Positions 25,002 through 28,336 of a stretch of 64,000 nucleotides of DNA are shown here, in pieces. Made by a program: the position numbers and the translations under genes. The notes below the pieces were generated by a model. The model did no database searches. It saw only the letters and a list, made by a program, of their open reading frames with translations, and was not told the origin of the DNA. How positions within the stretch are numbered: position 1 is the stretch's first letter; every line of letters starts with the position of its first letter. The stretch lies in NCBI GenBank assembly GCA_009838035.1, contig VXSK01000004.1, forward strand, positions 1 through 64,000. Reading direction: 5' to 3'. Origin of the DNA: Gammaproteobacteria bacterium (lineage in GTDB: Bacteria; Pseudomonadota; Gammaproteobacteria; Steroidobacterales; Foliamicaceae).

Positions 25002-26015
25002 CTAGTCGAGCGTCACGCCGGCGCCGGTTTCCACCCGGCCGATTTCGTGGACCTCCTCGCCCGCCGCAACCAGGTCTTCGCGCACCGCCGCCGCTTCGTC
25101 GGGGCCCACGGCCAGGACCAGCCCGATACCGCAGTTGAAGGTACGCAGCATCTCCTCGCGTTCAACCGGCCCTTCGCGGCTCAGCCAGTCGAAGACCGCC
25201 GGCCGGCCCCAGGCGCCGGTGTCGATCCTGGCGGCAAGGCCGTCCGGAACGATGCGCTCGACGTTCTCCGGCAGGCCTCCGCCGGTGATATGGGCAATCG
25301 CTTTCAGCCGCCCCGATTGCGCCAGCGGCAATACGGAGGGTATGTAGATTCTGGTGGGCTCGCACAGCGCGTCGATCAGGCTGCCGTCCAGGGCCTGCAC
25401 GCCACCGGCTTTTTCCACGATTCGGCGTACCAGCGAGTAACCGTTGGAATGCGGCCCGGATGAGGACAGGCCCAGCAGGAGGTCGCCTTGCCTGACGCCG
25501 CTGCCGTCCAGCAGCCGGTCCTTCTCGGCCACACCGACGCAGAATCCAACGAGTTCCAGTCCGTCATCGACGTAGGTGTTGGGCAGCTCCGCGGTCTCGC
25601 CGCCCAGCAGAGCGGCGCCCGCTTCCCTGCAGCCGCGCACGATGCCCCTCAGCAATGGTTCAAGGCGCTCGGGATCCAGGCGATTGGCCGCGCAGTAGTC
25701 CAGGAAAAACAGGGGCTCGGCCCCCATGGCCAGCAGGTCGTTCACGCACATGGCCACCAGGTCCACGCCCGGCGCCTCCATGCGGCCCGCTTCGCCGCAT
25801 AACCTGAGCTTGGTGCCGACACCGTCGGTGCCCGCTACCAGTACGGGTTCCCGGTATTTTCCGCGAGGCACCTCGAACAGACCGCCGAAACCGCCGATTC
25901 CGCCCAGCACGCCGGGGCGGTGCGTTTTCCGTGCCAGCGGTGCGATACGGCGGACGATTTCCGCGCCGCGCTCAAGGTCCACGCCGGCGCCGCTGTAGGT
26001 GATCGGTTTGCTCAC
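25002..26015 (-). CDS. purM: Phosphoribosylformylglycinamidine cyclo-ligase (AIR synthetase)
   Basis: A 337-residue ATP-dependent enzyme of purine synthesis step 5. The GTG at 26015, preceded by GAGAGGG, begins SKPITYSGAGVD, which matches the family start; an ATG ten codons upstream adds residues without similarity. Key blocks: VLGGIGGFGGLFEVP, VAGTDGVGTKLRL, DLVAMCVNDLLAMGAEPLFFLDY, and ITGGGLPENVERIVPDG. Length is normal (about 345). It is divergent from the DUF2066 gene across a gap of under 50 nt. Confidence 0.97.
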   Translation of the reverse strand: MSKPITYSGAGVDLERGAEIVRRIAPLARKTHRPGVLGGIGGFGGLFEVPRGKYREPVLVAGTDGVGTKLRLCGEAGRMEAPGVDLVAMCVNDLLAMGAEPLFFLDYCAANRLDPERLEPLLRGIVRGCREAGAALLGGETAELPNTYVDDGLELVGFCVGVAEKDRLLDGSGVRQGDLLLGLSSSGPHSNGYSLVRRIVEKAGGVQALDGSLIDALCEPTRIYIPSVLPLAQSGRLKAIAHITGGGLPENVERIVPDGLAARIDTGAWGRPAVFDWLSREGPVEREEMLRTFNCGIGLVLAVGPDEAAAVREDLVAAGEEVHEIGRVETGAGVTLD

Positions 26016-26047
26016 TCGAACCCTCTCTTTCGGGAAGCCGCACATCC

Positions 26048-26053
26048 TATAAT
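26048..26053 (+). promoter_or_regulatory. Consensus -10 (TATAAT) at the start of the DUF2066 gene
   Basis: A perfect TATAAT overlaps the first possible ATG (26052). If used, transcription would begin near 26060 and the real start would be the ATG at 26064, almost leaderless. The -35 region is poor. Confidence 0.4.
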
Positions 26054-26063
26054 GCCCGTTTCC

Positions 26064-27050
26064 ATGCTCTCGCGTATCGTGCCGTTGGCCTTGGCCCTGA
26101 CGCTGTTGCTGGCGTCCGCCGCAACTTTAGCCCAAACGTCCTTCAGTTCAACCGCGCCATTGCCCGACTCAAGTCAGGAGGGCAGGGACACGGCCCTGCA
26201 GGACGCGCTCGCGCGATTGCTGATCAGGATTACCGGGCGCAGGGGCGCAGCCGAACTCGCCGACCGCTTCCCGCCCGCCACGAGCATCGTGCGACAGTTC
26301 CGCGTCATCAACGGGGGACGTCTGGAAGCGGAGTTCGACGAGCCGCTGGTTCGCCGGATCCTGGAGGAGGCCGGCGAGGGCATCTGGGAAGGCGGCAGGA
26401 CCGGCCTTTACCTGTGGCTGGTCGTCAACGACGGAGAAAGATGGCTGTTCCGGCCGGTGGGTTTCGCCGACACGCCCCCACAGGCCATGAACGTCCGCAA
26501 CGTCTTCAGCGGCGCGCTGAGTCGGACTTTCGAGGAAGTTACGGCGCTACGCGGCATCGAAATCGACTTCGCGCCCGTGCCGGTTCCGCAGGCCGCCGGG
26601 CAATGCGCCGAAAAGCTTTGGATCGGCGATTTTGCCTGCCTGCCGCCCGACGACGATCGATTGATGGTCCTGGGAAGGGTGGCTGTTCCCGGAGCGCTCG
26701 AAGATATCGAGTGGAGATTGCGCGAGGACGGATTCTGGCAAGCAGTATGGACAAGCGACGCTACCGAAGCGGTCCACCGTGTGACGGACATGCTGGCCGA
26801 GCGTTTCATGGCCAGCCAGGGACCCGTGCGCTCGTACGTCCTGCAGGTGGCCCCTGTTCCGGACCTTCAGGCGTACGCAAGCCTCAAGGAGGGCCTGAAC
26901 TCCCTGCAGGCGGTACGGGAGTGGCAGGTGCAGGGGGCCGCGGGAGACGAGTTGACGCTGCGGATCACCTCCCGGACAGCCGAATCCCCGCTGCGCGAGG
27001 CGCTGGGTTCCCTGGGGATTTCGTTTGAACTGACCAGGACGGGTTCATGA
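26064..27050 (+). CDS. DUF2066 domain exported protein
   Basis: A 328-residue protein of unknown function. The ATG at 26064 gives a standard signal peptide (LSRIVPLALALTLLLASAA, then TLAQ); an ATG four codons earlier would overlap a TATAAT box. The DUF2066 core follows: GRDTALQDALARLLIRITG, then VRQFRVINGGRLEAEFD, LYLWLVVNDG and the C-terminal VREWQVQGAAGDELTLRI. It is conserved in gammaproteobacteria divergent from purM and upstream of a CDP-alcohol phosphatidyltransferase and hda, exactly as here. The next gene starts inside its stop codon (ATGA). Confidence 0.82.
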   Translation: MLSRIVPLALALTLLLASAATLAQTSFSSTAPLPDSSQEGRDTALQDALARLLIRITGRRGAAELADRFPPATSIVRQFRVINGGRLEAEFDEPLVRRILEEAGEGIWEGGRTGLYLWLVVNDGERWLFRPVGFADTPPQAMNVRNVFSGALSRTFEEVTALRGIEIDFAPVPVPQAAGQCAEKLWIGDFACLPPDDDRLMVLGRVAVPGALEDIEWRLREDGFWQAVWTSDATEAVHRVTDMLAERFMASQGPVRSYVLQVAPVPDLQAYASLKEGLNSLQAVREWQVQGAAGDELTLRITSRTAESPLREALGSLGISFELTRTGS

Positions 27051-28336
27051 GCCTCAAGCGCCACGTTCCGAACCTGATCTGCGTGTTCCGGCTGTTGCTC
27101 GCGCCGGTCATCGTGACGGCCCTTGCCCGCGGCGCCTATGGTCAGGCGCTGCTGCTGCTGGCCGTCGCCGCCGTATCCGACTGGCTGGATGGTTTCCTGG
27201 CCAAGCGCTGGGGGCTGGACAGTTATATCGGGTCGATCCTGGATCCGATGGCGGACAAGATTCTGATTGCCAGCGTTTACGTCACCCTGGCCGTGCTTTC
27301 GCATATTCCGGTCTGGCTGGCGGTCGTGGTCATCGTGCGCGACCTCGTGATCACCATCGGCTGGCAAACCTTCCGCGTGATGAGGGGTGAGCTGCGCCCG
27401 CGGCCCTCCCGGGTCAGCCGGCTGAACACCTTCGTGCAGATCGTTCTGGGGGTGGCCGTGATAGCCACCCAGGCGTTCGGCGGGTTTATTCCGGCTGACT
27501 GGATTCAGATCGGCGGGGCGCTGGCGCTGTTGCTGGCCGTGTTGAGCGGCGTGGATTACGTGCTGAGCGGTTCGCGGCTCGCCGCGCAGCGCAAGCGGCA
27601 GGGCGTCGGGTCCGTCGAGGGCGACAGGCATCAATTGCAGCTCGACGTGAGCCGCGAGGATCCCTGCGTCTTCGAGAATTTCTACAACGGCGCCAACGCG
27701 GACGTCGTGTCGGCGTTACGAAACCTGATCGACAGGGAAATCGCCGCTCCGTTCTGGTTATGGGGCGCTCCCGCCACCGGCAAGACCCATCTGTTGCTGG
27801 CTACCGTCAGGGCGGCAACGGACGCAGGATTGACCTCGGCCTATCTGCCCGCGCATGCCGGTTTCAAGCCGGATGCGCTGGATGCCCTGCGCAGGATCGA
27901 CCTGCTGTGCATCGATGACGCCGAGAAGATCGCGGGCGCTCCCGAGGTCGAGGAGGCGATGGGCGGTCTTTGCCGGGAACTCGAAAGGCGCGGCTCCCGG
28001 CTGGTGCTGGCGGCGGCCAGCACACCGGCCGGGGCGGACTTTGAGCGTGACGACATGCGCACTCGACTCGCTTCGGGACAGATCTGGAAGCTGCAACCGC
28101 TGACGGACGAGGAGCGGCTGGAGGCCGTGCAGCTCAGGGTGCGCAGCCGCGGCATCAAGCTGCCGGAGGCGACCGCGCGGTTCCTGATGCGGCGCGTGCG
28201 CCGCAATCCCAGTGACGTTTTCATTCTGGTGGACCAGCTCGCGGCCCTGGCGGCCAGCCGCAGCAAGCAACTGACCGTGCCCTTCGTGCGCCTGGCGCTG
28301 CGCGAGGGCATGCTGGAGGCCGGTGGCGGCCGTTAG
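27047..28336 (+). CDS. Fusion: CDP-alcohol phosphatidyltransferase + Hda (DnaA inactivator)
   Basis: A 429-residue two-domain protein. Residues 1-175 are a membrane CDP-alcohol phosphatidyltransferase with the signature SDWLDGFLAKRWGLDSYIG and ILDPMADK (Asp45, Asp48, Gly49, Gly62, Asp66, Asp70; Lys53 where PgsA has Arg), plus hydrophobic segments. After a basic linker (RLAAQRKRQG), residues 196-429 are Hda, the AAA+ protein that with the sliding clamp makes DnaA hydrolyse ATP: clamp-binding-like QLQLDV (196-201), ENFYNGAN, P-loop GAPATGKTH, Walker B LLCIDD, and the arginine-finger region DMRTRLASGQIWKLQPL. In relatives these are two adjacent genes. No stop or ATG lies at the junction; a GTG near residue 172 could still give separate Hda. 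A sequencing error that removed a stop is the main alternative. Confidence 0.85.
   Translation: MSLKRHVPNLICVFRLLLAPVIVTALARGAYGQALLLLAVAAVSDWLDGFLAKRWGLDSYIGSILDPMADKILIASVYVTLAVLSHIPVWLAVVVIVRDLVITIGWQTFRVMRGELRPRPSRVSRLNTFVQIVLGVAVIATQAFGGFIPADWIQIGGALALLLAVLSGVDYVLSGSRLAAQRKRQGVGSVEGDRHQLQLDVSREDPCVFENFYNGANADVVSALRNLIDREIAAPFWLWGAPATGKTHLLLATVRAATDAGLTSAYLPAHAGFKPDALDALRRIDLLCIDDAEKIAGAPEVEEAMGGLCRELERRGSRLVLAAASTPAGADFERDDMRTRLASGQIWKLQPLTDEERLEAVQLRVRSRGIKLPEATARFLMRRVRRNPSDVFILVDQLAALAASRSKQLTVPFVRLALREGMLEAGGGR

Follow-up and report, generated by a model that had tools for sequence, protein, structure and literature searches.

One reading frame for a CDP-alcohol phosphatidyltransferase and the replication regulator Hda: a probable membrane-tethered Hda in one gammaproteobacterial genus

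The window analyzed, a stretch of 64,000 nucleotides from a gammaproteobacterial contig, contains an open reading frame that starts with ATG and encodes, in this order, a CDP-alcohol phosphatidyltransferase of six predicted helices, a linker that is predicted to be disordered and contains the motif QLQLDV, and a complete Hda AAA+ domain. Three Pfam families match its product: CDP-OH_P_transf (residues 6-150), Bac_DnaA (residues 208-345), and Hda_lid (residues 354-417). The gene is surrounded by a purN-type formyltransferase gene and the divergent purM, a DUF2066 gene, glnD, and a gene for an M24 peptidase of the methionine aminopeptidase type. The DUF2066 frame, whose true start is probably downstream of position 25920, shares an ATGA overlap with the start of the fusion, from which the two genes are likely to form one operon. 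At the other end, glnD and the fused gene are convergent, and their ends overlap by four bases (28333-28336). The features of the locus up to the end of the enzyme half are as follows.

25920..27050, + strand: upstream DUF2066 gene, in ATGA overlap with the fusion start
27036..27039, + strand: AGGA Shine-Dalgarno core of the fused gene (duplex energy to the anti-Shine-Dalgarno sequence -7.0 kcal/mol in 7 of 8 genomes and -6.2 in the eighth)
27047..28336, + strand: fused CDP-alcohol phosphatidyltransferase-Hda gene (one frame, 429 amino acids plus stop, no internal stop)
27047..27574, + strand: CDP-alcohol phosphatidyltransferase domain, residues 1-176 (PF01066; six predicted helices of transmembrane length)
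27179..27256, + strand: CDP-alcohol phosphatidyltransferase signature, D45 to D70 (invariant columns of enzyme alignment A2)

The enzyme half matched PF01066 with 100.5 bits (cut-off, 22; E value, 1.6e-28; residues 6-150). Enzyme and Hda were aligned separately (alignments A2 and A3), and a joint alignment (A1), in which the Hda rows were misaligned, was dropped. The complete signature reads D45-x2-D48-G49-x2-A52-K53-x8-G62-x3-D66-x3-D70, and every acidic residue is kept; K53 replaces the usual arginine, and lysine is also common at this position among unfused relatives. AlphaFold2 placed helices of 23 to 35 residues at positions 4-27, 31-55, 60-83, 89-113, 122-144, and 150-184. Positively charged residues are found on the N terminus, loops 2 and 4, and the C-terminal tail, with few on the other loops. 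Because of this charge distribution, and with the six-helix model, both ends of the enzyme are predicted to be in the cytosol.

The genome encodes four CDP-alcohol phosphatidyltransferases, namely, a canonical PgsA (contig C2), a PssA-like protein (C29), a copy on contig C16 (L155:2516-3520, - strand) that scores below all equivalog cut-offs, and the fused copy. We rejected an assignment of the fused enzyme as PgsA, given a TIGR00560 score of 92.5 bits (equivalog cut-off, 109.1). It is homologous to the solved PgsA 7drj (residues 6-178, E value 2.1e-13), but the genome encodes a separate protein above the TIGR00560 cut-off, the PgsA of contig C2 with 127.1 bits. Equally rejected was its assignment as ClsA of the CDP-alcohol type (NF053678), the cardiolipin synthase of eukaryotes and Streptomyces (PMC5695855): the fused enzyme is closer to this family than the PgsA of the genome (81 versus 57 bits), but its 81.4 bits are far below the equivalog cut-off of 240. 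A PLD-type cardiolipin synthase (PLDc_2, PF13091) was found neither in the own genome nor in the single-contig congener G004; weak PLD matches to the PF13091 profile occurred in some congeners, and PLD proteins coexist with the CDP-alcohol enzyme in many other genomes of the order. Because the own genome is devoid of a PLD-type synthase, cardiolipin is possibly the product of the fused enzyme, an assignment made by elimination only.

Junction and Hda half contain the following features.

27575..27631, + strand: linker, residues 177-195 (predicted disordered; same length and no stop in 8 of 8 genomes)
27626..27628, + strand: AGG codon at the usual Hda start position, two codons before the glutamine of the clamp motif (start survey of unfused and fused genes)
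27632..27649, + strand: clamp-binding-type motif QLQLDV, residues 196-201 (QLxL in 8 of 8 fused genomes and at the start of nearly every unfused Hda)
27665..28105, + strand: Hda AAA+ core, residues 207-353 (PF00308; Foldseek; domain model)
27764..27787, + strand: Walker A, GAPATGKT, residues 240-247 (Hda alignment A3)
27902..27919, + strand: Walker B, LLCIDD region, residues 286-291, with D290/D291 (Hda alignment A3)
28064..28066, + strand: R340, the arginine finger of box VII (invariant in alignment A3; corresponds to R153 of E. coli Hda)
28106..28297, + strand: Hda lid domain, residues 354-417 (PF22688, E value 1.4e-13)

Over residues 196-418, the window copy scored 192.5 to 194.1 bits against TIGR03420 (Hda), for which the equivalog cut-off is 194.8, and five congeners scored 195.0 to 197.9 bits. 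The best solved structures retrieved with Foldseek for this half were those of Hda (3bos, 3sc3, and 5x06). With Hda (5x06, and 3bos from Shewanella) it shares the AAA+ fold with lid, Walker A and B, the box VII arginine, and an N-terminal QLxL at about 34% identity; however, solved Hda is a stand-alone protein, whereas the fused Hda follows a membrane enzyme and is without its own start codon. The full-length AlphaFold2 model (mean pLDDT 72.5, pTM 0.45) is uninformative as to the placement of the two halves relative to each other; the pLDDT fell below 50 over residues 178-208, and the AAA+ core was modelled. When modelled alone, the Hda half reached a pLDDT of 85 and a pTM of 0.83.

All 8 fused copies carry QLQLDV or QLPLEL at the junction, a conserved stretch that stands out against the diverged linker. 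Comparable clamp motifs are QLSLPL in E. coli and QFKLPL in Caulobacter (PMC3836487), and QLQLDV is a putative clamp-binding motif of the fused Hda. An unfused Hda in VYFG01000047.1 (L068:8543-9247) has no recognizable clamp motif (LLSRQTVIPSAPPD) ahead of its AAA+ domain.

Eight genomes of the genus, that of the window included, have an intact locus, and each of them carries the fusion in a single frame free of stop codons; in a ninth the locus is broken by a contig end. Identity of the other seven copies to the window copy was 98, 97, 96, 96, 95, 88, and 78%. Fused copies are present in, among other public records, WTGP01000018.1, JAPPHC010000061.1, VYBN01000043.1, JAPOWV010000074.1, and OX639965.1, and several of the congener isolate codes are ones that we take to be those of sponge microbiome projects. 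The window stems from a draft assembly of 31 contigs, for which an assembly or sequencing artefact might be suspected. Given the seven further genomes, one of them a single contig of 3,114,442 bp (OX639965.1), we rejected chance and also an assembly, indel, or frameshift artefact, and the probability of such an artefact is practically negligible.

Beyond the own genome, the genus, and the family, we searched samples of the order (296 genomes of 68 genera), the class (369 genomes), and the phylum (399 genomes). Among the best matches listed for the order and class, none was an in-frame fusion outside the genus, and those spanning both genes carry a stop codon (TGA, TAG, or TAA); the best matches listed for the phylum sample included no other one that spans both genes. 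As the searches covered samples and their best matches, fusions may still occur rarely outside the genus. The genes for enzyme and Hda are commonly adjacent and in the same order in the order sample, often closely spaced or overlapping. Such hda-adjacent enzymes of gammaproteobacteria share signature and gene order with the fused enzyme, which is up to 47-50% identical to its unfused neighbors of the same order, but in each of the relatives examined they end in a stop codon, whereas the fused enzyme does not. In small genomes (1.1 to 1.6 Mb) of members of family f13 in the order (e.g., G020 and G033; loci L011 and L013), the two genes are adjacent and no PLD-type match was obtained; at several of these loci they share one frame, interrupted by only one stop, and are possible near-fusions. 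A locus of the alphaproteobacterium Roseomonas (L077:5989-12799), with gene names of our own reading, contains, in this order, the divergent purM, an unassigned gene, a CDP-alcohol phosphatidyltransferase gene, and PerM-like, HdaA-like, and polyphosphate-kinase-like genes. The HdaA-like frame has QLPLPL near its start. From this gene order, the enzyme-hda neighborhood looks old. The fusion itself apparently goes back to a single event in one genus. No relevant description of a fusion between Hda and a lipid enzyme was found in the open-licence literature, and within these searches the putatively obligate fusion is a new architecture composed of two families that were both already known.

A search of the genus genomes with TIGR03420 revealed no second Hda, the other strong match being DnaA, whose gene has dnaN-like and recF-like frames as neighbors on contig C12. 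The preliminary description of this DNA can be upheld in what it observed and partly in what it concluded. Its fusion in a single frame is real and conserved, at 8 of 8 intact loci of the genus; the two genes are indeed separate neighbors in relatives, with a stop between them in the sampled other genera; the enzyme C terminus that it had placed in the cytoplasm is predicted there by the positive-inside count and the six-helix model; and the clamp-binding-like motif is kept at the junction. It had named three observations that would speak against the fusion, and none was made: there is no indel or stop between residues 175 and 195, the linker being of the same length in eight separate assemblies; the fusion is present in seven further genomes of the genus; and no separate intact hda accompanied by a degenerate fused domain was found. 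One point needs correction. The GTG near residue 172, which it proposed to examine as a separate Hda start, occurs in just 2 of 8 congeners, whereas the GTG that is invariant lies at codon 169 and has no Shine-Dalgarno match. Its further conclusion, that the fusion links envelope growth directly to replication start, is a possible one; as a source of the acidic lipid acting on DnaA, the genome encodes a better PgsA elsewhere.

Start codons were surveyed in fused and unfused genes. All 51 unfused relatives surveyed have such a codon (ATG, GTG, or TTG) at most five codons upstream of the glutamine of the clamp motif, mostly two codons before it. No such codon stands within five codons of the motif in any of the 8 fused genes, which belong to one genus, so that the loss of the start counts as one evolutionary event. 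The former start position is occupied by AGG in six fused genes and by ATA and GGC, respectively, in the two most divergent congeners (L009 and L010); ATA is a very rare start codon, and its presence in one congener counts against an obligate fusion. The same holds for a purine-rich, Shine-Dalgarno-like stretch that persists before the lost start (-5.4 to -7.0 kcal/mol). This stretch could be a relic or a random occurrence, given that -6.2 is attained by the lowest 10% of random positions.

Free Hda might nevertheless be made beside the fused form from an internal start such as GTG169 or TTG197. The former is invariant in 8 genomes, but its duplex energy is only -1.9 to -3.0 kcal/mol, as compared to about -7.0 at the real start, and it encodes the valine of the family-wide stretch SG-x-x-Y. 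The latter is preceded by a Shine-Dalgarno-like stretch of -6.4 kcal/mol in 5 of 8 genomes, but an Hda begun there would lack the first two residues of the clamp motif, Q and L, and in Caulobacter HdaA no longer functions once this N-terminal region is lost (PMC3836487). The other in-frame candidates vary among the eight genes (ATG187 in two, GTG190 in one, and GTG172 in two), no start near the clamp motif is conserved, and the 8 fused genes have no internal start with a ribosome site in common. We consider free Hda from such a start improbable. A soluble Hda could also be released by a protease if the fusion were made and then cut in the linker, and the fusion would then be devoid of regulatory meaning. 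The linker, predicted to be disordered, is positively charged and evolves almost freely, with a pN/pS of 0.63, yet it shows zero indels and an identical length across the eight fused genomes, and no protease site was identified. Cleavage is thus unlikely, if slightly less so than internal initiation. Taken together, the loss of the upstream stop, the loss of Hda's own start, and the lack of a second Hda in the genomes searched make it most likely that Hda is produced only as a fusion.

We also considered that the fused Hda has lost its activity in the regulatory inactivation of DnaA (RIDA) and is kept for another role, such as tethering of the clamp or of DNA to the membrane. The sensor-2 region of E. 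coli Hda reads REMRT; the fused Hda has RNPSD and is thus missing the second arginine. However, unfused Hda proteins are variable at this second position too (with H, R, N, or other residues), and Walker A, Walker B, R340, and R386, all in columns that are invariant or nearly so in alignment A3, are intact. Furthermore, pN/pS was 0.15 in the Hda half and 0.24 in the enzyme half, and both halves are, as judged by sequence, under purifying selection. A loss of RIDA activity is therefore very improbable. RIDA requires Hda to be bound to the DNA-loaded clamp via its N-terminal motif and, in addition, R153 of box VII, according to a study that reports on the roles of R153 and R145 (PMC3836487). The fused Hda has the motif as well as the counterpart of R153.

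The explanation that we favor, and regard as probable, is a genus-specific obligate fusion in which Hda is made only as a membrane-tethered C-terminal domain. Ancestral adjacent genes for enzyme and Hda would have lost the intervening stop together with the start codon of Hda, so that translation would yield Hda solely as a C-terminal domain in the cytosol, attached to an inner-membrane enzyme of six helices. The enzyme half presumably still works. The flexible linker would offer QLQLDV to sliding clamps on DNA near the membrane, and the Hda half would then stimulate the hydrolysis of DnaA-bound ATP from there. Solved members of the CDP-alcohol phosphatidyltransferase family are homodimers, and for this reason two Hda domains would also come to lie close to each other in the fusion. 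The tether would confine Hda to the membrane, from which some hindrance of its action at the replisome might be expected. Caulobacter HdaA with an N-terminal YFP retains clamp binding and function (PMC3836487), so that a membrane enzyme at the N terminus need not block Hda. The YFP partner is artificial and soluble, whereas the partner in this genus is natural, fixed, and embedded in the membrane. The fusion suggests that RIDA may be run from the membrane.

The membrane-tethered Hda is compatible with two views of what the fusion means. It may be neutral, with two unrelated jobs joined by a tether that is merely tolerated, and with lipid synthesis and replication uncoupled. The two genes were already adjacent and are often close or overlapping in the order, a small number of point changes could have joined them, and the fusion has an apparently single origin in one genus. 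Conversely, both losses are fixed in species whose fused proteins are up to 22% different, which shows that the fusion is at least well tolerated; sequence does not separate tolerance from benefit. We assign this view an about even probability. Alternatively, the fusion may be a working regulator, in which the sole Hda is held beside an enzyme making an acidic phospholipid, possibly cardiolipin. The inactivation of DnaA would be paired with a local lipid that reactivates DnaA, and envelope growth would set the DnaA-ATP level and initiation. What makes such a coupling attractive is that DnaA gives up its nucleotide in vitro under the action of cardiolipin and phosphatidylglycerol, and that depletion of these lipids represses initiation (PMC5742627, PMC3645759). 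A 2017 review stated that the possibility of a regulation of DnaA by membrane acidic phospholipids in the cell cycle "deserves to be further investigated" (PMC5742627). We advance this view tentatively and consider it doubtful.

None of the nine genomes of the genus contains SeqA (PF03925), and Hda may for this reason carry more of the restraint on initiation than it does in E. coli. A lineage that has joined the brake on DnaA to an enzyme of the phospholipid pathway, in which no independent route to Hda was detected and SeqA is absent, would offer a natural test case for a link between lipid synthesis and the control of replication.
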